Part shown: positions 5,719-63,375 of the stretch, piece after piece | Layout: the number at the start of each line of letters is the position of its first letter | Position numbering within the stretch: the first letter of the stretch is position 1 | Origin: Hexactinellida sp. DTS-2022 | Taxonomy: Eukaryota; Porifera; Hexactinellida | Direction: 5' to 3' | Assembly (NCBI GenBank): GCA_028753945.1 | Contig: JAPNXP010000008.1 | Location: 1,426,001-1,490,000, forward strand | DNA: 64,000 bases | Program-made: the position numbers and the translations under genes | Notes under the pieces: generated by a model | Database searches by the model: none | Told to the model about the DNA's origin: nothing | What the model saw: only the letters and a program-made list of their open reading frames with translations

Positions 5719-7806
5719 ATAGAAGCGATCTTAAATATCCGTCTCGTTGTCTGGTAGATTGTGTCTGTATCTGAATTCATTTTTAGCAAGGTTGATAACT
5801 TTAATAATTGAACAAATAATTTTATTCTGAACAAAGTAGAACAAATTGGTACAACTTTGTATGAAAATGATTATATATAAAAATAGTGATATGTGAACGT
5901 TTATAGTGATAAGTAACTTAGATGTGCTAAAGAGGTTATGCGTTAGATGGTCAAATTGTAGCCTATCAAAAGAGTCCGGAATGATAATAGAGTGGTTCGG
6001 AAGAGAGAATACGAACTAAAATACAATAAACTTTTAAACCATTTCTATTATATAATTCAACTTTGAAAGTTCAGTCCAAGAGTTTAGATGATGGCGAGAG
6101 ACTTAGTATACAAGTCCCGGAGTCTCTTAAATAGTATAGTAGTTTATTTAGTCCAGTAGTTACTTTACAAGTCTAATGTGAAGTGATTAATTACAAGTTC
6201 TTTCCAGGAGTATTCAGAGCGAGACATAGTGTTATGCTCACGTATACCTAATTATTAATGTCTAGTAGTTGGTAATCCTCATTAAAATATCAATTCACTA
6301 CAAACATATCTCTAGAACAGAGCTCAGGTTTCCTTAGGATTTAGGACATCTTTAGTTGAACTAGAATAAAGTACGTATTTATACCCGGAGTGTATGCTTT
6401 AGAATTTAGTCTTTTTGAAATTAACCATAGATTTATCTCCATGGTCCTTATTTATAATGGAGTATCATTCCCTTAGGACATTAAATGCTATGCTTAATCC
6501 AAAGCAGAGATATAAGTATCAGCACAAAAGTTTATAAAATTATCAGGGGGCTCAGCCCCTATAGCACCCAAACCCCTCCCCCCCTGGCTGAAAGACTCAC
6601 TCGATATAACTCTCATGTGCAATTTGAACAAATTCTTAGTAGTAATTCGCATTAGTGTGCGGCACAGTATCTTCAAAATGGTTCAAATTCGAGGATCTGG
6701 ACCATTTTCTACATCCGGTTTGCAAGAGAAATGGTTGGATGAAACAAACTCGATTTTAAATGAATTGATAAATATACTGCTGACTAACTTGAAAACTTTG
6801 CACAAACCCCCCTCCCCACTAAGTTGAATTTTCAAACTTAATATACGTATATACAATAGAACTTCCTTAGTAAGAACACGCTGAATACAAGATTTCCTAG
6901 GCGGGTAGAGTAATATATAGTGGAACTACGTTAGTACGAACACGAGGGTACCGCCATAATACGTCGCTTTATTCGGAATACGTATTAACCAATATGATTT
7001 GTTCTGAAACGCTTTAAATTGGGACTGAATAATGTTAGGAAATTTGTGCCAGAAGTGGCTCATGACAGGACACATTTACCACCTCAAATCGACATGACAT
7101 GACCTGAAAACACTAGGTTCCAAAATTTATACAGTAGTACGATATTTAAGTAACATCAATGTAGTAGCATTTCTGTCCCTGTCAATTTGAGAAATATCAC
7201 CGTACACTGACTTGAACAGAAGAATGACAAGTAACACCGAATTGATGCTATATTATAGCATCATGACGAAGACGAAAACGCATCAAGCTATATTAATCGG
7301 AAAACTATGGTGACGAAATTTCAGGGAAGGAAAGTAATGAGAACTGATCTTCTTAGAAATATTTAACTTCTCCTTTTATTATATGTCTGACTCAGGCTAA
7401 GTGATAGAACTTTAGAAACTATTCATCCCCAGCTAAGTCAAGACAACTGTGCGTTGTGACAAATTGAGAATAGTAGGAGGGACATGATGATAGATAAACT
7501 GTTACAGAATATTTTACAGCTTTAGTTGCTGACGTGGAATGTTGTGAAATGTACCGCCTCCATTAGGACTCCATTCTCTGCAAATTTCCAGGATAAAGCT
7601 TGTTGAAATGGCTTAACCGGTAGAGGATTTGTAGCTACCTTACAATCTGGAGCCGAAAATTACGTGTTTGGCAACTTTCACTAGAAGTCAGCATAAAACT
7701 TAGGAAAATCAATGCATTTATTTATGACAAACGTGAAATAAAAGATTAATAATTCGTAAACAAATTTAGATGAACATTATACATTGTTCTTGTATTAAAC
7801 TAATCA
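5719..7806. other. intergenic DNA with pogo-like fragments
   Basis: No gene seen. Near 6865 and 6918 there are two same-orientation motifs of the type GGAACTNCGTTAGTACGAAC, resembling pogo/Tigger termini; no matching right end was found. A GC-rich patch at about 6547-6595 is unexplained. Confidence 0.35.
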
Positions 7807-7875
7807 ATAGCCTACTCTATATAAGGCCTACCATCAAAGCTGATATTTTGCACCAAGGATGAAGTAGTGTACGAT
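7807..7875. repeat. left terminal inverted repeat of the P-like element
   Basis: Reverse complement of the right TIR, with several mismatches in the middle of the arm. Outer motif ATAGCCTACTCTATATAAGG; inner motif ATGAAGTAGTGTACGAT. Confidence 0.85.
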
Positions 7876-8395
7876 ATTATTATTGACTCATAGTTATTTA
7901 CATTTATCTCTGTACAGTTAGAAATATTTTAAAAATAGTTGGATGAACTTGCTACTGATTTTTGTTAATTTTTAGTAATTAATTAATACAATTCTCCTTC
8001 CACCGATATTTAAGCACTTCCTAGTACGTAGTACTATATTTGACTTTGTTTCTTTTTAATAGTTAGATATTTAATTTTTCTCAATGCCGAACTGTTCTGC
8101 CCCTGGTTGTAGGGGTAATTATACCCCAGAAGAGAGAGCCCCATTTTTAAACTTCCAGATGGTCCACCTGAGTTACGACATGCCTGGATATGTGTTTTCC
8201 ATCGTGAGGATATTTCTGAATTCAAAATGGTGTACGTGTGTGCTAAGCATTTTCCGAAGGAAGATATTCAATATTTTCACACGGTACCCAGAGGAGATGG
8301 CACATCCTATGAGGTCCCGCGAGGAAGACCCAAATTAAATCCTGGCGCTGTCCCCTCTCTCCTTCCTGGTTGTCCGTCTTATTATTCCCCTACCC

Positions 8396-9485
8396 CAGGG
8401 GTGGGCAACCCCCGGCCAGCGGGCCAGATCTGGCCCGCGACACGAAATGATCCGGCCTCTGCTCTCTATAAACATGCTCATCATGACCTCCGATTCGTTC
8501 ATTCAAATAAATCCAAATACTCGCTATCCGGGTGAGGGGTGTACCGATCCAAAGAATTTCTGTTCCGATTTGTGAATTCGTATGGAATAGTCCACTAATA
8601 CGATTATATAAGCCTCTATAAATGAGATCCTGATAATCCAAACCATACAAGTCCAAAGCTTATAAATCCAAACTAAACATTTAACATGGTACGTTGGATG
8701 CCGGGTGTAAGCACATCGTCGTGCTTACGTATAAGTGGCATGTTCTTATAAATGACATAAATTATATAGGGTAAATGTTAACCGTTTTCCAAATAGTGTT
8801 CTTAGATCCGATATGTTATTATAACCGGTGTGATATTCGACATCTAATGTTGTTTCACAATTCCAATGTAATGTTCAAAAAAATTCCATATTTAACGAAG
8901 TAAGTTGTATTTCGGATAATACTTGTATTTTAGCATGTGGTTGCTTTATAATTTTTTAAAAATTTAGAATGTCGCCATTTTGTGATTTAGAAGCCTTTGG
9001 GGTATGAAGTATATCCCTATTTTAGTATTCCTATTATAAAATTATAGAAAGTAGGAAGTAACGGAAATTTATGATATTTGAATTTTTTTTCATTTTACCA
9101 AAAATTGTTACCGTCATCATTAAATGGCGCCTAAATAGCTTAACCACAACTCTAAGATTCTCAAAAGTGGTTCTAATGGACTCGCAATGGTTGATTACCC
9201 CATATACAACCCAAATAACAACAATAGGAGGCATGGTTTAGCTTTGAATTAAATTTAAAACTGGCCTTCTTGTTTGAAGGCCAAGTCGGGAACATACACA
9301 GCCGTATATATAGTAAGCCATGTGTGGTAACATTATTGAGATAAGTAAATTCACATTTACTCCTGGTCAACAATTCTACAATGGAACAATTCGGAGTAAG
9401 ACTAAAGGATGGTAAATCGCTTGGCCCGATTAATGCGGTAAATTAATCAATCTGTCCCGTAGGTTCTAAAGGTTGCCGACCCCTG
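8396..9485. mobile_element. non-autonomous hAT element (1,090 bp) inside the THAP-coding region
   Basis: Ends are CAGGGGTGGGCAACCCCC and, at the right, GGTTGCCGACCCCTG. The flanks CCCTACCC (8388-8395) and CTCTACAC (9486-9493) agree at 6 of 8 positions, so the TSD is imperfect. Related sequence recurs at 42590-42790, and a related end lies at 43921. No transposase is encoded. Confidence 0.8.
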
Positions 9486-17834: not shown

Positions 17835-20467
17835 TTTGTATTTGAGAGTATTTCAATACTTTTTTCTAGTATTTTGTACTGTATTTGTATTTTAACTTTA
17901 TCTAAATGAGAGTATTTGTATTTGTATTTAAATACTTTCAAAAAGTATTTTAAATATTCAAATACTTTATAAATACGTACAATCAAATATTAATTATACA
18001 CCCATAATAAGTTAAAGTTATTTATATACGAGGTAGATTAATATAAGTTGTTTACCCAACAATGGCAAAGTACCACTCAATGATCTCCAGATTTTTCAAT
18101 GTGCCTGAAGGCGTTGAAGGCAATTTTTCTACTAAATGCAAGCTATGCCCATCAGAAATATCTGGCTCTACTAAGGCAACATCAAACTTACTTCTCCATC
18201 TCAAGGTACTATTAGTTTGTCAATTAAGATATCTTGTTGTATATGCAGACAGTGGCGTTAAGTAATATTTTTCGTATTTTAACCTATTAAATAGGGTACA
18301 TTGTCATCATAATAAATACTACATTGTTATGTAAATTATCTTTCTTATTATTTGAAGAGGCACAAGTAAAAGAACAGTCAGAGAACAGCAGTCAACTCTA
18401 ATATCATTGGTCTCTACACCTAATAAGTACAGTACCAAAGATCCACGCCAAACAGAACTGAACGATTCCATTGTCATATATATTGCTGGCGACTTGTTGC
18501 CCCACTCCACTGTAGAGAGTAAACGGTTCCGAAATAAGATCAACAAGGCTTAGCCTAAATAGCAAATCCCCAATCGGAAGCACCTAACCAAAGATCTAAT
18601 GCCTCTCAAGATCACCAAAATCCAAGAACAACTTATTACACAATTCAAGCAAGTTGAAAAAGTATGTGTGACTATTGATTTGTGGACCAGCAGACTTATG
18701 CGAAGTTACTATGGCGTTACATGCCACTTCATTATTGACTAGAATTTGGAATCTGTTATGCTCGCTTGCTCTCGCCCCCGTGGATCTCATATAGCTAATT
18801 CCATCGCTGAACAGTTTCAGAACACAACTTCAGCTTTTGGGATTTCCAATAAGGTATCACACATCGTAACAGACAACGCCGCTAACATGACCAAAGCCTT
18901 TTCATACCTGGCTTCGAGGAAATTGGGTCGTATGATTCGAGTGATGAATCGTCTGATGATGATGAAAGTAAGTGTTATCAACTGTATGTTCGAATCCCTG
19001 CACGAATATATGAATGAGCACGTTTCTTGTTTCGCTCATACATTGCAGCTAGTGATCAAAGATGGTTTTAATCAAGCTGCTACCCTTAACAAAGTAATCG
19101 CCAAAGCCTCTGCCATCGTATCCCATGTTCGCAAATCAATACATGCATCATAATTACTAGAATCACAAAAACGGCTCCAAACTTCTAACACCACAAGATG
19201 GAATTCACAACTTGTCATGGTGCGATCCATCCTGCATATTCCAGAAGAAATATTGTGCTCCCTAAATACACAGCACCAGATTACTGCATACAACCGCACT
19301 ACCCTGAAGGACATGATTGAAATTGTGACGACTTTCGAAAGTGCCACACGTTGTATTCAAGGTGGCAAGGTGATCACTGGGAGTATGGTTGTCCCCTGTG
19401 TGCGAATACTGAAGGCGGAAATGGAAGTATTGTGTTCCAAGTACAGTTCCAAGTTCGTTGCTACACTGAAGGACTCTCTTCACAAAAGACTGTCACACAA
19501 TGAAGAACACGATGGTTTCAAACAGCAGCTACTTTGGATCCAAGGTTCAAGCAACAGTGGTGCTCCTAGGCTGAAATGCATAGGCACAAGTACAGCCTCA
19601 TTGCTAAAGCCTTAAATATCGCTCCTAGACAGGCTGAATTTTCCCCTACTGAAAGCATTCCCAATCCCGAACCTCCGACAAAGAATAATTGTGGGTTCTT
19701 CAGTTTACTGATCCACGTTCCTGTCAATGACATCAATACTCATAGTAGTATTGAATTGGAGATACAAGAATATCTAACTACTCCATGTCTCCCAGAAGAA
19801 TCAGACCCTCTCAGCTTCTGGAAGTCGCACACTTCTAAGTTTCCAACACTAGCTTATTAGCAGAGAAATTTTTCGCGTACAAGTATCTACTGCTCCTGTG
19901 GAGAGGCTATTTAGTATTACAGGGAAAATATTTCGTCCAGAGAGATGTCGTCTAACAGAGAAAACATTTGAACAACTGATGTTCCTGAGATCTAATGACT
20001 CTAATAAGAAATAGTAATATTATAGTTCATAGGATTTTTGATTAGGCTATAATATACTTAGTAGAAGATTATGCAGCTACATGGTATTCATTAGGTGATA
20101 GTATATTAGATTTTCATGGCTTGATTAAATCATCAAAAAGTGAATTGCATATACATCATTGTTATATTAATTAGAGACGGGAACGGGGCGGATAGCGAAT
20201 TTTGTTAAATATAATAACCATGGTCCAGGAGGATCGTGTTAGAATATGTTGAATTAGCATCGGTTTTGCGAATTGTATTGGTATTGTAATTAAATACATT
20301 CCAAAGTATTTGTATTTGCATTTAAATACATTGTCATTTAAGAGTATTTGTATTTGTATTTGTATTTAAGAATTTCACATGTATTTGTATCTGTAATTAA
20401 ATAATTTTCAAAGTATTTGACCCCATGTCTGCCAACATGCTATAATGTGAAAAATTCATTTTGTCTA
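17835..20467 (+). mobile_element. BED-finger hAT transposon
   Basis: A hAT gene lies between subterminal arrays of TATTTGTATTT-type repeats (17835-17960 and, mainly, 20280-20420). The exact TIRs were not resolved because the arrays blur them. The whole unit sits between two ~120-bp direct repeats. Confidence 0.7.
18062..20014 (+). pseudogene. hAT (ZBED-type) transposase, disrupted
   Basis: A cut-and-paste transposase of the hAT superfamily. Exon 1 (18062-18205) encodes a BED zinc finger: CKLC, then after splicing the H-x3-H of LLLHLKRHK. A likely intron runs 18206-18357 (AAG|gtacta, acceptor gaag|AGG) and restores the second finger half. Downstream, VTIDLWTS at about 18668 is the RNase H-like core start with the first catalytic Asp, and HIVTDNAANMTKAF at about 18860 is the second Asp region. 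The C-terminal hAT dimerisation region is read at 19885-20000 (APVERLFSITGKIFRP). Stops or frameshifts occur at about 18375, 18740, 19150, 19612 and 19858, so the gene is dead. Start chosen as the Met giving an uninterrupted BED finger. Confidence 0.88.
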
Positions 20468-28849: not shown

Positions 28850-30200
28850 TTTACGTTTTTACCAATTGTACTACTTATTGCCTCCAGATATTCCCAAGGT
28901 GTAAAATTACCGTTAATCAATTGATTTTTAAATGTTGATCGGCGCTCATCATTGATAATATTCTAAAGTTTTCTTGGCCTACTTATTTCATTCCCACTTG
29001 ACAACCTTGCATAGTCGGGATCAGTATCCGCAATTATTTCGTTTAAAACTGTCAAGAATTTCCAAATTCGGGGATGACCAGCCTGAATTCTTGTCTTGAG
29101 CTTTGCATGATAGCTTTCAGCTCAATTATTTGTAGTTGATTTTATATAAAAACTGATAATTCCTCGGGACTAACCTGACAGAGCCATCTCTTCGTAAAAT
29201 ATCTTTTAAGTTTATCTAAATTGACCCTATCTGTATCAGTAAGTGTCGTAGGAGAATTTAGAAGACTGTAAGTTGGTTGTATCAGTGTAGATGGGAGGAA
29301 GGGAATGGCCATCAAGTGCTGACAAATGTTGATAAGTCTCGATTGCTGTGAAAACTGTTGACAAGTCCGAGTTTTTGGGTTTGATGCCAGATGCGTTGCG
29401 TAAAATGAAACCAACAGCCTTTGATATTAATATCTGGATAAAGCTCCTTCATTACATTTCTTGGAGCGATTTCCCAGTCTGACATACATGACATAGGATT
29501 GAACTGTGGTACAAGATTGCGAATACTTTCCATAATGCATTTGTATAGCCCTTGTTCTTTTCCTGTCAAAAGACAATGGATTGCAGGTAAGGAGTGCCTT
29601 TCAACTCTTACAAAAATGGTCCACAGTTGATAAAATTGATTTCGAACACAGTAAAAAGTTCCATCGAACTGAATATCAGGTGCCTGTGATACTAAATCCA
29701 TCATTTTATCAGAGAAGAATATGAGAGCTGTTTGGTCATTAATTGTAACTTTACTTTTATGGAACTTTCCAAAGGTGGTAGTCGGTAATAACAGAGATAA
29801 TTCTGTAACGTTTGAAGGTATTTTCGGCTCTAAACTCTTTCTTGAGCGATACATTGAAGATTCGATTTGAGGGAATGATACCTCTGTTGCAAAAGAATCC
29901 TCTCTAGTCGTATCATCGAATATTTTTCGAAGAGGATCCTGTGAGGTACGTGCCTTGGTTTTGCATTTCTTCTTTAGGTCAAAGGTTTCTGAATGGTAGT
30001 TCATGATTTCGTGGTTATGTACGTTGCCTGGGGTAATCAAATCCCTGTCCCTATCCACTTCAGCCGTTGCTTTACATCCATCTCTGAATAGCGCACATTT
30101 GAGGTAGCGACTGATTTAACTGTATATTTCCGTTTAAGATACTTATGACCATCTGCTGTAGTGAGAATATGCCCACTCATGCGTCTATAATTGTCTGTTT
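28850..30200 (-). pseudogene. FLYWCH-MULE transposase
   Basis: DDE-type transposase of the Mutator-like superfamily. Reading leftward from about 30170: a FLYWCH/WRKY-GCM-type finger, with C-x5-C in KCALFRDGCKA and H-x-H in NVHNHE (about 30040-30115, crossing a frame change); a linker; the MULE core with the first Asp in IQFDGTFYCVRNQFYQLWTI (about 29670), the second in CMSDWEIAPRNV (about 29470) and the C/H signature KGCWFHFTQRIW (about 29430); then the third acidic residue in AESYHAKLKTRIQAGHP (about 29100). Defects include a TGA inside the latter motif and frame changes near 29420 and 29150. It shares a unit with the RING segment at 28596-28844. Most of the core (29312-30058) is open, so decay is recent. 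Confidence 0.85.
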
Positions 30201-48950: not shown

Positions 48951-49570
48951 ATAAATTGTAAATACATTAATAAAAAGGAAAAGCAATAAAGTTATCGTGG
49001 CTATACCGGGAAATTGTTATATTCATCATTAAATCTGATAAAGGAACAAATATAGCCAAAGATAACGTTACAGTGCACGATGACTGGAAATTTATATTTC
49101 AGTTTTCGCTAGCTTAATCAAATGTATTAACCTATAATAGATCACCCCTAAATGTGATTGGCACCACCAGAATTTTAATATGGCTTCTTATTTTTGTATG
49201 ACGTCATCGTTAGATGACTGAATTTTAATTCAAGTTGAAATTAATCAAACTCGTCATATACTAATAAGACAATTCACCAAATACTCGTGGTAGCTTCTGA
49301 ATTTTTCTTTATTAGTTTTAAAGCTTCATTTTGAAAATTAACGGTAGATCACAAGACCTGTATCACTCGGCAAGTGTTATTCAAAGTAAATTTTCTTGAT
49401 AAATGCTCTCGACACCTCCAAATGTGTTTATTGCATGCTTCGAGACCTTCTTCTAAATATCCTCTAACCCATAACCTTAATTATAATACAAAATGATTTG
49501 AGGGGTGTGTCCTATAACATGTGAAGAGTCGGCGAAATATTTGCCTTTGAAATTTCGGAAAAATTGATTG
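48951..49570. other. intergenic DNA
   Basis: Nothing recognised. Confidence 0.35.
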
Positions 49571-49579
49571 ATATGTTCA

Positions 49580-49948
49580 CGAGTGTTATCTTAGCAGCGG
49601 ATTCAGCAGCGGATTCAAAAACCATGCTTCCAGGCTTATAACTCAAAAAGTATAAGTCCAGTGTAAGAAATAGTTATACCATTCGAAAGAACAAACTTGG
49701 TGCATTTCATATTACATTTTAATAATACCAGAATCGCCATGATGAGTTAGCAAAACTCAATATAATTTTGAGTTCGGTTTTTGGTTAATAATTCGACAAA
49801 TATTTATTACAGAGATATTCCTTTTAACTACGTTTATATCTCACTTGGTACATTTTATAGTTCAATATTGAAATAAAAATATTCTTTTTGACCAAATTTG
49901 CATTTTAGCATTTTTTAACTAGAAATCGTATATTCTACTCAATAGTCT
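49580..49948. repeat. left ~370-bp TIR
   Basis: Outer part has CAGCGGATTCAGCAGCGGAT. It matches 55937-56306 in reverse complement to CTCAATAGTCT. A few substitutions separate the arms. Confidence 0.92.
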
Positions 49949-50149
49949 CCATATGTATTACTCAAGTATACTGATACTATAGAATATTACATACTATATG
50001 TTATTATGATGATGATAGTTGTTTGTTACATTGTTGATTATGTCAATTCTATTATTCAAAATAGTAACGTAAATACTCCACGGATTCCTATTTCTATTTA
50101 TAATAATTAATCTTACTTAATTAAATTAATTAAAGACGATTCTTATTTG

Positions 50150-50410
50150 AAGTCATACAATTCAAACATTAATTAAATTGTATTAAATTAAGATGAAATA
50201 TAATTTGAAATATTGAAATTATATTTAAATCAAACATTGGGTACGACCTGCGCAACCAGAAGAAGCACACTCCCATTCGTCTGCGAGGGGATTTTATCCT
50301 TTAGCTCAGTGGTCCACCTGGGGTTCCCGGGCGGCAGTAGGGGTCCACAAGATCTCAAAATTTGTTTTACGGTCAATGGGACAGTATGTCTAATATTTGC
50401 TATATAGGGG
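50150..50410. repeat. dispersed repeats inside the OTU element, including a hAT end
   Basis: 50150-50270 is shared with 16270-16450 (inverted). 50307-50410 starts CAGTGGTCCACCTGGGG, a hAT terminus related to 39411-39520. No second hAT end or TSD was found. Confidence 0.6.
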
Positions 50411-51816
50411 GAGGAGCAGCTTGTGTGTATTAGTGCTAATAGCTATATAATTAATTAAGTCAGTTAATTAATAAACACATTTTTCATACTGTACACATAA
50501 GCATTTCTGATCAATTTACACTCAGTAAATTGTATTACATTTTATTCTCGTTTTTGTACCGAAAAAGCACAAATTTAAATAATTAGTAATAAGGATGTCA
50601 TTCTTCGTTATGCTACTACTAAAACTAATCGTTGTGTAAACTCCTCAAAATTATTACCTTTGCAATTTGGATCTCTTCATAATTTTAATTAAAGCCTACA
50701 CCAACATTTTATGACATCAAAGATTATTAATTATACTTTCGGTACGATTCATCCTTCACCTTTTAGTTCCCATTCTATTGAGTTTATCTAAACACTTATT
50801 CATCAATACGTAATACATTGTTTTTGGTACTTCACATAATTGTACAAACAAATCAAATAATTAGAATACAATCTTTCATAATAATACACATCAATACACA
50901 AATAACTATTCTTGTTACAATGATTGAAGTTGCTTTTTACTAACTCCAACTAAGTTATCCAAATTTCATTTCCATAAATAATTTGATTAACTTCTAACGA
51001 CTCCGACTGCTTTTGGTACGTTCTTAATTCAGCCGATTTTCACATAACATCAAATATTTGTATCTGCTCTGTTAAAGAACTAGAGGATAAATCTCATACC
51101 TATTTTTCAGAAAAATATTTATAAAGAATATAATTTACAACGAGAGCGTAATAATTTAGCGACTTTCGATAACATTGGTTTGACATTAATTAATATGAAA
51201 TTTATTTTGCAATTCATTGATTTCAAGATTTTAAACTGATCGACTATGATGGTTTTCGATTAATTGTCAATTAATCTCTCCAAACATGCAATATACATAT
51301 TAGTCACCACTAATAGAGAACTAGATTAAAGTTTGCACAGTGTTTGGTAATAAATAAGTCATTAAAATAGTGACAGTATAATTTAATTAGAAGAGAGAAC
51401 TCGAATTAGAGAAAACTAATTTAATTAGGAATTAGAGAGAACTAATTGTTGACAGGGAAGAGGTAGAACTATTTACGTAATGATAAAGTAGTATGTACGT
51501 ATGTTGTTTACTTTTGGACTATATCATCATCCTCGTCAGCCTAAGTATAGTATCAACAATAAATTACATTCATCTACTTTCATAAAATATATTAAAGTGG
51601 ATAGTTTCTTTGTAGTCGATAACATGTCATGTATTCATTCATAAGATTGTTACTGTTAATGTTAAATACAATATATTAATACTGAGGAGAACTTTACATT
51701 GCGATGTTATAGTAGTTGCTACTTGGAGAATAATATTGAGAAAGGTGGGATGATAAACAAGTGATTTATTTGACATGAATTTAATTAATTAAATAAAACA
51801 ATATTGAGAATTACTA

Positions 51817-52584
51817 CTAAGTATGATTTCCTAACTTAACAGAAAGAATTGGCTCATAATGGTTAGCAAAATTCTGTATATACAAACCATTTGATCTTGG
51901 TGTCTTTATTAGCTGATCAAAACTTGATCCATTTCCTGAAAAGCTTGCCCAACGTGTTCCAAGAGGACCCAAATATATCCAAATATCAATATTAAACAGC
52001 AGTGCAGTTGCCAAAACATCCAGGTCCGTAGCCCATTTCCCATTCTTATTCATTCCCATTTTGTTAACCCAGTCCTGCACATTTCTATAATTACCCTGAG
52101 TGTACACATACTTTGTACGCAAATATTTATTACAGCTCATGCTTAATTTTCCAAGCATATTTTCAACTATTAGGGTTCGTATATCTAAATGATATCCTTT
52201 ACTTCGGGTCATAAGGTATGAAATAGTAGAAAAGTAGCAATTTCCATCTCCTACTATATATTCCATCAAATGTGGAACATAAATAAACAAACCTTCCTTG
52301 TTCGGTAAGATATCAGAAAAGGAGTATGCCACCTGCTGACAAAATTGCAAATTCCAATTTTTACAAGTTTCAATTTGCCACTCAATGTGAGGTGGACGAA
52401 AGTTTGGTAAACTATAACGTATAATACCCGTTTCTACCAGTTCTTCATCAGTTATGATGGAAGCTACTTTGACTTCTGGTGATCTACAATCCTTATGTAA
52501 GGCAGATAATTTTTCAAATTTTCGAGGGACAAATTTGTCTTTAATTTTATGAGCTTTATTATCAACTTTGATTTTTTTCGTCAT
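51817..52584 (-). CDS. OTU-like cysteine protease domain (C-terminal part of the element protein)
   Basis: 255 open codons. GDGNCYFSTISYLMT (about residues 113-127) is the OTU active-site block (DGNC-[FY]), with Cys in the D-G-N-C motif. The C-terminal NHYEPILSV (about residues 241-249) fits the catalytic His region. Between them IRTLIVENM, WATDLDVLATALLFNIDIWIY resembles the OTU core (W.. d.ei.aLA..l...I.v). OTU proteins usually cleave ubiquitin or related chains. The Met at 52584 follows the stop of the upstream fragment with a 4-bp overlap (52581), so this may be a separate ORF or the same protein after a frameshift. It is the most intact ORF of the element and may still be translatable. 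Function in transposition is inference. Confidence 0.82.
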   Translation of the reverse strand: MTKKIKVDNKAHKIKDKFVPRKFEKLSALHKDCRSPEVKVASIITDEELVETGIIRYSLPNFRPPHIEWQIETCKNWNLQFCQQVAYSFSDILPNKEGLFIYVPHLMEYIVGDGNCYFSTISYLMTRSKGYHLDIRTLIVENMLGKLSMSCNKYLRTKYVYTQGNYRNVQDWVNKMGMNKNGKWATDLDVLATALLFNIDIWIYLGPLGTRWASFSGNGSSFDQLIKTPRSNGLYIQNFANHYEPILSVKLGNHT

Positions 52585-52952
52585 AGGAAATTCATAAATT
52601 TAGGTTTTAAATAGCCACATGTTTGTTTACTTTTCCTTGACCACTCTTCAATACTTTGCTCTTCCGAATTATCTCTCAATCGTTTATGACTTTTTAAAAC
52701 TTTATTAGGTCTCGGATGAAAGGCGAACCGAAATGCACGAATCCTACTTACTATACCAGAATACAATTTTTTAATAAGATCTTCAGGTCTTAAATTAGTT
52801 TCAGAGCCCAAAATATTTAACTTTAAAATACGCATCCAATTCTCTACGACAGCATTACTACAATGAGCATAATTTGAACCTACTGAAATACTTTTCAATC
52901 CTAATATGATACCACTCCATAAAGGTAAAATTGGCAAGTAATAAGTTAACAA
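52581..52952 (-). CDS. transposase fragment with the third acidic motif
   Basis: Reads YYLPILPLWSGIILGL, then NYAHCSNAVVENWMRILKLN, then RPEDLIKKLYSGIVSRIRAF. The NAVVENWMRILK block matches the position of the final catalytic Glu in this family of repeat-encoded proteins, as I remember them. It overlaps the OTU ORF by 4 bp in another frame (a simple frameshift or an overlapping stop-start). Confidence 0.65.
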   Translation of the reverse strand: MLTYYLPILPLWSGIILGLKSISVGSNYAHCSNAVVENWMRILKLNILGSETNLRPEDLIKKLYSGIVSRIRAFRFAFHPRPNKVLKSHKRLRDNSEEQSIEEWSRKSKQTCGYLKPKFMNFL

Positions 52953-53169
52953 GTATTCTATAAGATCTGGATCATAGCAAGGATTGGGATTTAGTATACT
53001 TTTCGAAGCATTATTATTATTAATATCATTTTCGCAAAGTTTGGCAATGCTAACAAAATGTCTCCCAAATGGAGATTTTTCCTTAAAGGTTTTACTGTCC
53101 TTGGTAGCAATCGAATTATTGAAATCTTCTTCTTCTAGATTGTGGCTAACCTCGGTTAAGTTATGGTAT

Positions 53170-53660
53170 TCATGACGTATATGATTCTAATGTCTTCATA
53201 CGAGTTTTCACCTTTGCACTTATTGATCTACTCTTAAAAACAAAACACAAAGAACCAAATAACATATTTATATCAGTGATGTCGGTACAGCGGACAATAA
53301 ATAAAAAGAATGTAAAATAGCTTCTTACATCCTTATTAAATTGCATTTCTTGTTCATATGATAAGCTTACACTATGCATTAAATGAGCTGAACATAAGTG
53401 CAAAACTACTTGGATTTCTGTTTCTTCCATATTGTTTACTACTATACAACATTTATCAAGATAAGAATCGATATCGCACCTAATAAAAACATTGGAAGTA
53501 CTGTGAATTAAAGCCCAGCTGAAGTCTATCCGATTTGTGAAATATTAAGAATACTCCCTAGTATTTTCTTTGCATCTAGTGACCATTTGTGTAAAAAAAA
53601 GTGATTTCAGCGCTTGTGTGTCCGGAACTAATCATCTCTGCTAGCGGAACTGGACTAGTT
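53170..53660 (-). pseudogene. transposase core fragment with the second Asp region
   Basis: Reading leftward with one stop: SPVPLAEMISSGHTSAEITF (about 53650-53591), then NRIDFSWALIHSTS, where the Asp is the probable second catalytic residue, then EIQVVLHLCSAHLMHSVS (about 53420-53370) and YFTFFLFIVRCTDITDINML. The order PVP..EMIS, DFSWALI, CSAHL is constant in this uncharacterised family. Stops near 53550 and 53430 may be an intron or decay. Confidence 0.68.
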
Positions 53661-53678
53661 GTGTATATGTAGGATGTC

Positions 53679-54071
53679 TTACTGTAAGGGCATAATAAAA
53701 TACTTCTTTTGTGATGGTTCAATTTTTCTAATTATAGAACCAGTGGAGTCTAAGTGAAGGATTATGCTTGTTTCTTTGAAAGATGTTAAAATTCGAATTT
53801 GATCTTCACTATATAGATGAATAAGAAATGGATAATGTCCTAAAGATTGAATGTAACCGGTAACATGACCACCTATGTTAATGCTCTGATAATACTGTTG
53901 TAGAGTAATTAATTCAGTCCAATTGACATTAGAATATCTTTGTAAGCTAGATAAATCAAATTTCGCTTTCCGTAAGACTGAAGAACTTCGAATTTTATTT
54001 AAATTGCCATAATTAAGTGCCAAGTCAGTGTTTTCGGATGACTCGAATTGATTATAGAAATTCCTATTCAC
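53679..54071 (-). CDS. transposase N-terminal core with the first Asp
   Basis: 130 open codons. SVLRKAKFDLSSLQRYSN, then GGHVTGYIQSLGHYPFLIHL, then SIILHLDSTGSIIRKI; the Asp in HLDSTG fits the first catalytic position. The fragment ends KKYFIMPLQ just before the PVPLAEMIS region. The reading frame is open at the 5' side, where sequence up to 54300 is poorer. Confidence 0.7.
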   Translation of the reverse strand: MNRNFYNQFESSENTDLALNYGNLNKIRSSSVLRKAKFDLSSLQRYSNVNWTELITLQQYYQSINIGGHVTGYIQSLGHYPFLIHLYSEDQIRILTSFKETSIILHLDSTGSIIRKIEPSQKKYFIMPLQ

Positions 54072-54701
54072 AGATGTATCAGTTAGTTCTTTTGCAACTT
54101 AAGTTCTTTGTAAATTAGATAAATTCCTTGAATGAACAGTTTTATTATCTGAATTTTGCTCAGATAAGGCACCAGAAGCTATATACTCTACAATAATAGT
54201 ATCATTATTCTTTAAATCATTCAGCCCCTTCTTGATTAAGAATGTAAATTCTAAACAATTACTAAATTTACAAACTGCTTTTGCTCTAAAATAATAAGCA
54301 TTTTGTTTTCTACTAATTTTCTTGTTTATTTTTTGTATTTAAAACAAAGTACACATACAAAAATACTCTCCATTTTTGTACTAAATAAGTTGGTCCAATC
54401 GTTCGAAAATTTGATTACGTTTTTCCTGCATTAGAGTAATACCATTCCATTCCTCTACACTAATCAAAAATTCGCCTCATATTTCTTCTTTATCCATAAA
54501 TGGATCAACAGTTATTTCATTACATAGAGTATCATCATCTATCGGTGCCACTAATACATCCGAATAAGATTGTGTAGGAATTACGAGATTATCTGTCCGA
54601 AGTCCATCGAGAGACTGAGGTTTTGTGGTTATTAATACTGAGGATTGTGGCACACTTGAAGAGAAGATAATTTTGAAATTTTTTGATAAAGATGAATGAA
54701 A

Positions 54702-55154
54702 TCAGTTTAGTATTCCTAAATTCTCACGACTAGTTAAAATAAATAGAATAAATACTTCTAGCTGTTGAACTGTAAATGCAATATAGGAATTATCAAATAT
54801 TTCTAGTACTTGACACTTGATATTTTCCACCAACACCCATGCTTCTATTAAACTAGCCTCTCTCTTTACTAATCTAACAGAATGAAATCTGTCGTTTATA
54901 AATTTGCTAAATCTAGCAGATTCTTTATAGAGTTCTTCATTTAAGAGAATGTATTCTCCACTAGTACATGGACACTCAATGCTAAAAAATTTAAGAGCAT
55001 CTAGCCACACAATATTATCGCAGTTTAAGTAGGTCCAAAAATGCGTATTGTTTGCTCCGGTATGGGGAGGGGAAGAAGCGATGGAGGACACTAAATTATA
55101 TAATTCAGGCTCTTCGCAACCAGATGCCCACAATGCAAGGAGTTTGTCATTCAT
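54702..55154 (-). CDS. element ORF of unknown function
   Basis: 150 open codons: LLALWASGCEEPELYNLVSS, FFSIECPCTSGEYIL, VRLVKREASLIEAWVLVENI. Probably a separate protein or N-terminal part of the transposase. No domain recognised. A TTTTAG acceptor-like site just upstream may join it to 55166-55549 through a ~35-bp intron. Confidence 0.55.
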   Translation of the reverse strand: MNDKLLALWASGCEEPELYNLVSSIASSPPHTGANNTHFWTYLNCDNIVWLDALKFFSIECPCTSGEYILLNEELYKESARFSKFINDRFHSVRLVKREASLIEAWVLVENIKCQVLEIFDNSYIAFTVQQLEVFILFILTSRENLGILN

Positions 55155-55165
55155 TATTTGTCGCT

Positions 55166-55549
55166 CTAAACTATCTGCCTAAAATCGTAATCACTAAAAG
55201 TACAAACACTAACCTCCGAGTTATTATGGTAAAAACTAGCTGATTGTAACCTGGGGCTGATGTGTTCGACGGCCAACATGGGTATGTCACTATAGTTAAT
55301 TGACTTACGGATGTTACCTTTAGTCATGTCTTTAACCAGTTGTTGAAAATTCCCGCGGTTCAGTCTCCATTTCAAGTAGAGAGATTCACGCTTACAAGCT
55401 TTGTTCTTTCCAAATACAGTTATGGACAACTTTCCCCAGATTGATTTGGCTTTGTGTCTATCTCCCATATCCAAGGCAGCCTTGATTATTTGAAAATTAG
55501 CATAACCGAGTTTGAGAAGAGCCTGTACGAATTGCTCAATAGATGCCAT
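55166..55549 (-). CDS. element ORF, likely 5' exon of the same gene
   Basis: 127 codons starting MASIEQFVQALLKLGYANF; basic middle (KAKSIWGKLSITVFGKNKAC). Start chosen as the first Met after AT-rich leader sequence and the first long ORF inside the right TIR. A donor-like GAG|gttagtg lies near its end. No domain recognised. Confidence 0.5.
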   Translation of the reverse strand: MASIEQFVQALLKLGYANFQIIKAALDMGDRHKAKSIWGKLSITVFGKNKACKRESLYLKWRLNRGNFQQLVKDMTKGNIRKSINYSDIPMLAVEHISPRLQSASFYHNNSEVSVCTFSDYDFRQIV

Positions 55550-55936
55550 GGCTAAATTAATAAATTAAATACAGTCAATTACTATAAGGTTGAACTAATT
55601 AAATATTATTTTATTGTGCCTTGAAAGTAGAAAAGAAAATTTAAGCACCTGTTATAATGTTGACGAAAGGGAAGTCGAAGGTGAAGAAGATAAATTAAAA
55701 AGTAAGGTCGAAGGTGAAGTCGAAAGAGTAGGCAAGATTTAAAAATCGATCAAAAAAGTAGAAAGAAAAACAAATAAATTGAGTAATAACGATTGATAAA
55801 ATTTTAAGAATAATTGTAAATAGTAAAAGTAGTCTTATAAATATCAACTAAATTTGGCTTGTTTGTACAATACAAGCAATACATCAAAGAATGAGTGTTA
55901 CTGTGGATAAAATAAATATTCAAATAAATTAAAATC

Positions 55937-56306
55937 AGACTATTGAGTAGAATATACGATTCTAGTTAAAAAATGGTAAATGCAAATTTCGTCAAAAATG
56001 AATATTTTTATTTCAAAATTGAACTATAAAATGTACCAAGTGAGATATAAACGTTGTTATAAGGAAATATCTCTATAATAAATATTTGTCGAATTATTAA
56101 CCAAAAACCGAAGTCAAAATTATATTGAGTTTTGCTAACTCATCATGACGATTTTGGTATTATTAAAATGTAATATGAAATGTACCAAGTTTGTTCTTTC
56201 GAATGGTATAACTATTTCTTACACTGGACTTATACATTTTGAGTTATAAGCCTGGAAGCATTGTTTTTGAATCCGCTGCTGAATCCGCAGATAAGATAAC
56301 ACTCGT
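55937..56306. repeat. right ~370-bp TIR
   Basis: Reverse complement of 49580-49948, followed by the TSD copy GGTATGTTC. Confidence 0.92.
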
Positions 56307-56324
56307 GGTATGTTCCTGTAAAAA

Positions 56325-61593: not shown

Positions 61594-63375
61594 ATGGATG
61601 ATTCCTATGAAGAAAAATTTAAGAGAGAGCTTTACATTAAATATGAGACTTGTAAAAAAATACTGATGCCCAAAGATCAATATTATTCAACTATTGAGGA
61701 TGTTAAATCAGCTGCTGCAAACCCTGCTACCAAGAATCGTAATTGTTATTATCTCCTTCAAAAGTAAGTATAAATTCAATGCTCATAATTTTCAGTACTA
61801 GTTTATTTTTCATAATACTATTTCAATAGCTAAAATGTTAGAAATTATTAATTATTACTTTACAATCAAGCAACAAAATTTCGAAAAGTAATTATCTGAC
61901 ATTAAAGAGAAAAACTACTACGACTTAAACATATTTGGCATATTTTTTAGGTACGAGATACTTCAATGTGGTGATCTGGAGAAATTGATTAAGCGGCAAA
62001 ATCCTGAAGAAACCCCTTTGTACTATGTGAGTATAGAGGATACCTACGATGTGGTTAGACGAGCACACCTATCTACTGGTCATGGGGGACGTGATCGAAT
62101 GTTAAAGGAACTTAGCAAAAAATATGCCAATGTCACTCGGGATGCTCTGGAACTGTTTAAATCCCACTGCCCGGAGTGCCAAAAGAAGCGTAAACGTCAT
62201 ATGACCAAAGGTGTTGTTGTACAACCTATTCTCACAAATGAGTTTTCTTCCCGTGCCCAAATTGACTTGATTAACATGCAATCTATGGTACAGAACTCGT
62301 TTAAATGGTTTCTTGTGTATCAGGACCACTTGACCAAGTTTGTGATCTTAATAGCTTCAACCTCAAAATGTGCAGCTGGAGTAGCACATCATCTCCTGGA
62401 CATATTCCTTCTCGTTGGTGCCCCTGCCATTCTCCAGAGTGACAATGGCAGTGAGTTCACAGCACAGGTGATCCAAGAACTCAAAATCGTATGGCCTACG
62501 ATCATTATGGTTCATGGAAAGCCGCGCCACCCACAGAGCCAAGGTTCAGTGGAACGAGCCAATGGTAACATCAAAGATATGCTTGTTGCATGAATGGGAG
62601 ACAATTATATAGCTGATTGGTCAACAGGCATCAAGTTCGTTCAATTCCAAAAAAATTCCAGTCTCCATTCTGAGGTCAAAAGAGCTCCATACGCTGCCAT
62701 GTTTGGCTGCGATGTTAAAGTTGGTCTGACTTCTTCATCTCTTCCTACAGAAGTCATTGAACGCATGTAGAGCGAGGATGATCTCTTGTCAGTTCTAAGC
62801 ACACCACTCATAGAGACACATCAACAAAGTCCCTCTGCAACTATAACTGAACCAAATATACCCAATAGCAGTCAAAGCGACTTAAATGTAGTAATTACAG
62901 GTCATAACTATTCCATGTCTACAAACGATCTACCAATAGCAACTGTCTATGAAAATAATTCAGCGATTGGCACCACCATGTCAGTACTCACTACAATTCC
63001 ACATCTGTCACAAACAGTCTATCCCAGTCAGATGATCCACCTCCCATGAGCTCTGCACCTATGGATATCATCACCTCACACATAGATAGCATATTAGTGG
63101 AACGACAGGGTGTCAGAACTGCCCAGTTTGCCCAAGCTGAATGAATGGTGAAGAGAAGTCGGATTGATCTAGCTCACGGACATCCTGGTGATAATGTAGC
63201 AGTACCAATACCTCTGGTTGACAGAGGACGTGGTGACCCCCGTAACATTCTGGGAGTGATCCTTGACTGTAACGAGAACAACATGTACAGTATTTGTGTT
63301 AAATCTGGTATTCTTAAATCAAAGTATGCCCGCAACCAGTTTGACCTGTGTAAAGCGGTTCATAATCCCTGGTAA
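61594..63375 (+). pseudogene. KRBA2/SCAND3-like integrase gene, nearly complete
   Basis: An rve-type integrase of the family found in KRBA2-like proteins and Ginger-like elements. Exon 1 (61594-61763, start MDDSYEEKFKRE) joins exon 2 (61951 on) through a clean intron, giving LLQKYEILQCG. Exon 2 has an HHCC zinc domain (RRAHLSTGHGGRDRML ... CPECQKK) and the DDE core: first Asp in AQIDLINMQS, second in LQSDNGSEFT, Glu in GSVERANGNIK. The frame then meets a TGA (62591) where the family usually has Trp, and continues in frame to a TAG (62768). A shift and another TGA precede the C-terminal GDNVAVPIPLVDRGRGDPRN domain (63145-63375). The few point lesions suggest recent inactivation. An upstream Met at 61519 is possible, but CAG|GCACAAC just before 61594 looks like a splice acceptor. 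Confidence 0.85.
61764..61950 (+). other. intron of the integrase gene (187 bp)
   Basis: Donor AA|gtaagtat and acceptor tattttttag|GTACGAG. Splicing keeps the frame (AA+G TAC), so the element's gene is spliced, as expected for an animal host. Confidence 0.85.

Follow-up and report, generated by a model that had tools for sequence, protein, structure and literature searches.

What is a putative deubiquitinase doing inside a DNA transposon, and does it move with it? The question is raised by an element in the sponge Hexactinellida sp. DTS-2022, located in the window, i.e. the 64,000-nucleotide stretch that was analyzed (JAPNXP010000008.1, positions 1,426,001 to 1,490,000). An earlier reading of the letters alone (the sequence-only reading) had described there a DDE-type transposase and an OTU cysteine protease between terminal inverted repeats (TIRs). 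The element spans 49579-56306 (6,728 bp) and is one decayed copy within a 112.4-Mb genome (18 contigs), on contig 17. Judged from its sequence and that of its relatives, it is itself dead but belongs to a DNA transposon family that is still young and that encodes transposase and OTU domain as a single protein.

The sequence-only reading had reported several separate minus-strand open reading frames (ORFs) with the motifs HLDSTG, DFSWALI...CSAHL, NAVVENWMRILK, and then GDGNCYF...NHYEP. Their order was correct, their separateness was not. Because the protein of a sibling copy, L050, aligns colinearly along them, the ORFs are pieces of one gene, which is a single frame in intact copies. The alignment consists of three colinear stretches spanning residues 11-1260, with 57%, 51% and 67% identity, and the single frames of L049 (1,255 amino acids, aa) and L050 (1,261 aa) match the window ORFs end to end. 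Uninterrupted single frames, read from stop to stop, were present at seven loci and measured 1,077-1,349 aa: besides the two just named, these were L107 (1,260 aa), L108 (1,349 aa), L109 (1,197 aa, without the N-terminal part), L110 (1,077 aa) and L111 (1,096 aa). An intact frame consists of an N-terminal part, a core with the residues D-D-CxxH-E, and a C-terminal OTU domain. The claim that OTU belongs to the mobile unit, together with a DDE-type transposase, is supported.

Searches of the genome with the window OTU ORF and with the ORF containing NAVVENW gave at least 152 and at least 151 matches (147 and 150 scored candidates), respectively. Among the matches listed, 24 DDE frames reached 1,000 aa or more without a stop; in 23 cases an OTU match followed on that strand, no more than 232 bp away, and the 24th (C17:3765647, locus L111) contains OTU within its own sequence.

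The OTU assignment withstood the Pfam comparison. Taken alone, the window OTU ORF matched PF02338 with E 4.8e-4 and 21.1 bits, under the curated cut-off of 23.3, which the intact copy L049 clears with 23.7 bits. All 8 of 8 OTU segments matched PF02338 at E <= 1, with a best E of 8.7e-11. Among solved structures, the OTU profile found a nairovirus OTU (E 1.4e-5), OTUD1 (4.3e-5), OTUD5 (5.5e-4) and OTUD3 (0.0046). At the catalytic positions, twelve aligned members have the Cys in 12/12, the His in 11/11 readable cases, and the Asp in 11/12.

The residues of the DDE core, likewise aligned in twelve members, are conserved too. The second D, the CxxH (CSAH) and the E are invariant (12/12), and the first D is present in 11/12, the exception being L130, whose frame apparently begins out of frame there. 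A search of the PDB with the DDE part gave no match at E <= 5. In the N-terminal part, a C-x4-C and one H are invariant in 7/7 family members, and no Pfam zinc finger (FLYWCH, SWIM or similar) was found at E <= 1 in two full proteins. Outside the host genome, a whole-protein search of viral contigs gave no pattern match and a search with the DDE alignment gave 22, none of them confirmed; none of the 33 pattern matches in bacterial and archaeal genomes was confirmed either.

The ends of the element were largely as described. The best inverted pair in the window element extends over 373 bp at 95.2% identity and scores 586 bits, far above the top score of 39.9 bits in 50 mononucleotide shuffles of the region, in agreement with the TIRs of ~370 bp that had been proposed. 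The 9-bp flanks (GATATGTTC / GGTATGTTC) do agree at 8/9 positions. The right end at 56306 stands, and the left end is at 49579, not at 49580. A genome search with the TIR yielded further copies, of which 27 TIR pairs from the match listings (18 + 9) were examined together with those of the window, L049 and L050. An end was counted as recognized if it differed from the 15-base terminal sequence at no more than 4 positions. Both ends were recognized in 26 of these 30 pairs; an exact 9-bp duplication was found in 18 of the 26, and a duplication within one mismatch in 20. As a control, the left flank of one copy was paired with the right flank of another, and 2 of 650 such combinations agreed within one mismatch. 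The 9-bp flanks are thus a property of other copies as well. A second line of evidence for this duplication comes from L049, which interrupts an array of 154-bp satellite units: the array's register on the two sides overlaps by 9 bp. Two further lineages, with ends chosen by eye, showed duplications of 9 bp (C9) and 8 bp (C5).

The ends are related in three lineages (ACGAGTGTTATCTTAGC, ACGAGTGTGAAGTTAGC and ATGACTGTGAAGTTGGC), and the aligned TIR arms in two other lineages measure 723 and 617 bp. The TIRs hold tandem units of ~335 bp in L049 and L050 and of ~174 bp in L108, which recall Foldback/Phantom ends. As side observations, the satellite array that hosts the young copy L049 (locus positions 1-1383 and 7596-8501) offers a clean empty-site register, and an imperfect (78.5%) palindrome of ~410 bp lies just outside the element of L050 (295-705), perhaps another small transposon.

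The TIRs bound the same gene set in other copies, with 26 of the 30 pairs bracketing an OTU match. The other four, read whole or in part, look like internal-deletion derivatives of the transposase-OTU gene, such as are usual among DNA transposons. In three of them (L127, L128 and L138) the core and almost the whole of OTU are gone, while TIRs and the N-terminal portion of the gene are still in place; the last 42 residues are kept in L127 and L128, and foreign DNA lies between the remaining parts in L138. Many copies are nearly identical (TIR 99%, similar protein score), indicating that the family has moved recently.

The sequence-only reading had regarded the OTU ORF as the best preserved segment, hinting at selection or at late acquisition. 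By our own count, the window gene has at least 9 stops or frameshifts in the ~3,000 bp upstream of OTU and 0 in the ~780 bp of OTU. With an even spread of lesions, we estimate the chance of a lesion-free stretch of ~780 bp at P ~0.1, and several sibling copies do have stops inside OTU, so that special preservation of the window OTU is at best weakly indicated.

Selection was judged from the ratio of nonsynonymous to synonymous substitution rates (dN/dS), for which L049/L050 is the sole informative pair. The ratio (with bootstrap interval) was 0.15 (0.09-0.24) for OTU, 0.21 (0.14-0.30) for the DDE core and 0.31 (0.23-0.48) for the N-terminal part. Both OTU and transposase core are thus under purifying selection in this pair, OTU as strongly as the core. 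The OTU ratio was 0.26 for L107/L108, a pair near saturation (dS 1.7-1.9 together with L107/L049), and 0.77 with an interval of 0.17-3.4 for L108/L109, a pair that is too similar; several further pairs gave no dS.

Late acquisition was not confirmed. Trees of DDE and OTU for the same 12 loci have an identical main split (5 vs 7, 100% in both) and agree on three close pairs. They differ at one fork, resolved for DDE and left open for OTU. The shared split argues that OTU was already there before the lineages parted, and the DDE-OTU frames are single and unbroken. Diverged lineages carry OTU in frame down to 26-41% identity to the window OTU. Most likely, then, OTU is ancestral to the sampled lineages and no late passenger, and its conservation suggests that the OTU tail of the transposase matters for transposition.

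Table 1. Parts of the transposase-OTU element in the window (positions in the window, 1-based)
Feature	Position	Strand	Basis
Left target-site duplication, GATATGTTC	49570..49578	.	8/9 identical to right flank
Left TIR, starts ACGAGTGTTATCTTAGC	49579..49948	+	95.2% inverted repeat over 373 bp; at least 49 genome matches
C-terminal fragment of the gene: linker and OTU cysteine-protease domain; D, C of GDGNC and H of NHYEP kept	51817..52599	-	PF02338, profile matches, colinear with intact frames
Fragment of the broken transposase gene: end of DDE core, catalytic E (NAVVENW)	52581..53186	-	E in 12/12 members; colinear with L049/L050
Fragment of the broken transposase gene: second D (DFSW) and CxxH (CSAH)	53170..53544	-	Both in 12/12 members
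Fragment of the broken transposase gene: first D (HLDSTG)	53679..54098	-	First D in 11/12 members
N-terminal part of the broken transposase gene, with stops and a frameshift; C-x4-C stretch (CKFSNC)	54099..55564	-	tblastn of the L049/L050 protein onto the window
Right TIR	55937..56306	-	Inverted pair with left arm
Right target-site duplication, GGTATGTTC	56307..56315	.	8/9 identical to left flank

Whether the family should be counted among the Mutator-like elements (MULEs) is a separate matter. The exact 9-bp duplications (18/26) and those of 9 and 8 bp in the two other lineages fall within the 8-11 bp of MULEs, and the 373-bp TIRs of the window element are of the long kind that is common, though not universal, in MULEs. 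MULEs are further defined by a DDE core with a CxxH between the second D and the E, and the OTU family has this order of D, D, CxxH and E. Its spacing is unlike that of the eight ordinary MULE pieces (1.5-1.7 kb) that were taken from the host genome for comparison. These PF10551-type MULEs share the order D, D, CxxH, the E (4 located) and a similar motif around it with the OTU family. However, the distance from the second D to the C is 44-47 residues in the OTU family (12/12) and 21 in the ordinary MULEs (8/8), and that from the second D to the E is 219-237 (12/12) compared with 120-133 (the 4/8 in which it was located).

The MULE transposase family PF10551, with at least 150 matches in the host genome, had no match at E <= 1 in 7/7 DDE segments of the OTU family, nor in two full proteins. 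Comparison of the OTU-family core with the eight ordinary MULE pieces by hhalign gave P 0.065-0.93 across settings, with thin profiles (7-12 vs 2-8 sequences), and P 0.097-0.39, again with thin profiles, when the 12-row OTU-family alignment was used; two MULE groups aligned against each other as a positive control gave 5.6e-6. In one of the best stretches, itself non-significant, SNAIVENWMRIVK is aligned with TNNSVEGWHRAF in the region of the catalytic E. We call the family MULE-like: duplications, TIRs and residue order fit, the spacing differs, and neither Pfam nor the profile comparison, a weak test with so few sequences, gave a significant match. Only tentatively would we go further and propose that it forms a deep DDE clade of its own beside the MULEs, with an OTU deubiquitinase that is obligatory in the transposase and needed for, or protecting, each transposition.

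Two other identities were tried. Ginger1 is ruled out by the 9-bp duplications and by the lack of an rve match in 7/7 DDE segments. The hallmarks of hAT elements are an 8-bp duplication and short TIRs, and this identity is excluded by the mostly 9-bp duplications and by TIRs of hundreds of bp.

The window holds traces of further mobile DNA, apart from the element. A separate, ordinary MULE transposase fragment lies at 29312-30115 on the minus strand (PF10551, E 5.7e-9, ZSWIM-like). On the plus strand, there are a THAP domain at 8119-8535 (E 2.1e-8), perhaps of P-element-like transposon origin, a weak DUF659 match under the cut-off at 18743-19153, a fragment that we take to be hAT-like, and at 61892-62593 an integrase core (slightly under cut-off) with H2C2 zinc binding, a Ty3/Gypsy-like or Ginger-like fragment. 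Elsewhere, the host genome contains ~30 near-full-length actin-family frames without internal intron; so many intronless actin frames are unusual for an animal. Compared with solved structures, one actin gene of the genome is closest to C. elegans actin, followed by cytoplasmic actins of other animals, in keeping with a metazoan host.

What, then, might the OTU domain do? Going by sequence, we consider it probable that the family comprises cut-and-paste DNA transposons with a DDE core joined to OTU, and that the tethered OTU removes ubiquitin near the transposase. The N-terminal part would bind the TIR ends, perhaps with the C-x4-C stretch as a WRKY/FLYWCH-type zinc finger, although no sequence model recognized one there; the D-D-E site would cut and join with a 9-bp stagger; and OTU, in the vicinity of the transposase, would strip ubiquitin or a ubiquitin-like tag. 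Most likely, this would guard the transposase, or host factors of the transposition complex, from ubiquitin-driven removal; the next most likely role would be at the donor or target site, where OTU would act on repair-related or chromatin-bound ubiquitin.

Several observations weigh against this reading. For some long DDE frames, shorter or interrupted (C14:387607, C1:8467260, C6:1162830, C14:3619515 and others), no OTU match is among the matches listed. L129 (C12), the fourth of the OTU-less copies and read in part, retains the DDE part and is missing only residues ~966-1253, i.e. OTU. An end was not recognized in 4 of the 30 TIR pairs, and 8 of the 26 recognized pairs lack the exact 9-bp duplication (2 with one mismatch, 2 with an exact 8 bp, 4 with none). 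The OTU dN/dS of L107/L049 was 0.42, above what the core would suggest, in a pair near saturation (dS 1.7). Finally, single-sequence fold prediction of the window OTU gave a mean predicted local distance difference test (pLDDT) score of 34.

Among the alternatives, the foremost, although rather unlikely, is that OTU acts outward and deubiquitinates histones or silencing factors, allowing the element to escape repression, as suggested for anti-silencing genes with the SUMO-protease domain Ulp1 in plant MULEs. According to a 2026 review, Ulp1-bearing VANC-type genes (KIU) of plant MULEs are tied to hypomethylation and silencing escape, and the role of Ulp1 itself in these genes is stated there as unknown (PMC13317346). 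The selection on the C-terminal OTU in L049/L050 would also suit an outward action. However, OTU and transposase form one fused protein here, an arrangement that favors action on the complex.

Improbable, in our view, is self-processing, in which the OTU protease would release the transposase from its tail. The position of OTU at the extreme C-terminus, after a variable linker, would be convenient for this, and cysteine proteases do self-process elsewhere, but the OTU domains of the best-matching structures cleave ubiquitin. It is less credible still that OTU is functionless cargo captured from the host, in the manner of Pack-MULEs. MULEs are indeed described as prone to acquire host gene fragments (PMC6446971), yet the in-frame fusion across diverged lineages, the kept catalytic residues, the dN/dS of 0.15 (L049/L050) and the shared tree split all speak against a mere passenger. 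That an OTU unit with insertion boundaries of its own is nested in an older transposon, as the separate and unbroken look of the window OTU ORF might suggest, can be dismissed given that DDE and OTU share one frame in L049, L050, L107, L108, L110 and L111. We would accordingly rank self-protection of the transposase complex above an action on host silencing or repair ubiquitin, and the latter above self-processing and passenger status.

Ubiquitin or SUMO proteases are found repeatedly in transposons that are not related to each other (Ginger1, Helentrons, plant MULEs), and their role is unsettled. With young, near-identical copies, unbroken frames and natural OTU-deleted derivatives, the present family makes this role directly testable with one protein. 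Helentrons and Helitrons, which are not known to have a DDE core or TIRs, differ from it as rolling-circle Rep-helicase elements. Their OTU domain is described as lying within the transposon's own large protein (PMC6431247, PMC9741609), and as of 2022 transposon OTU domains are reported as not yet assayed for activity (PMC9741609).

The transposases of Ginger1 are described as carrying OTU or Ulp1 at the C-terminus, and its TIRs as ~40-270 bp long; its authors proposed that OTU/Ulp1 acts in transposition, e.g. via repair (PMC2836005). The likeness thus lies in the C-terminal OTU on a transposase and in the TIRs. As described, Ginger1 differs by its Gypsy-type integrase core and its CCGG/CCGT-specific duplications, in contrast to the other core and the 9-bp duplications of the OTU family.

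In Table 1 of Dupeyron et al. (2019; PMC6446971), MuDR-6_HM appears as MULE group 14, from Cnidaria (hydra), with one ORF and the entry 'Ovarian Tumour Gene', the sole such group tabulated; its TIR is given as 'None' and its target-site duplication is not indicated. Compared by description only, it resembles the OTU family as a MULE, or MULE-like element, with OTU in a single ORF, and it differs in the tabulated absence of TIRs, which in the OTU family measure hundreds of bp and are flanked by 9-bp duplications. Nothing closer than MuDR-6_HM and Ginger1 was found in the open-licence literature, by title and abstract. As far as these descriptions go, transposase-OTU fusions have already been published for Ginger1 and a MULE with OTU for hydra, and the family described here would be a variant on that theme.

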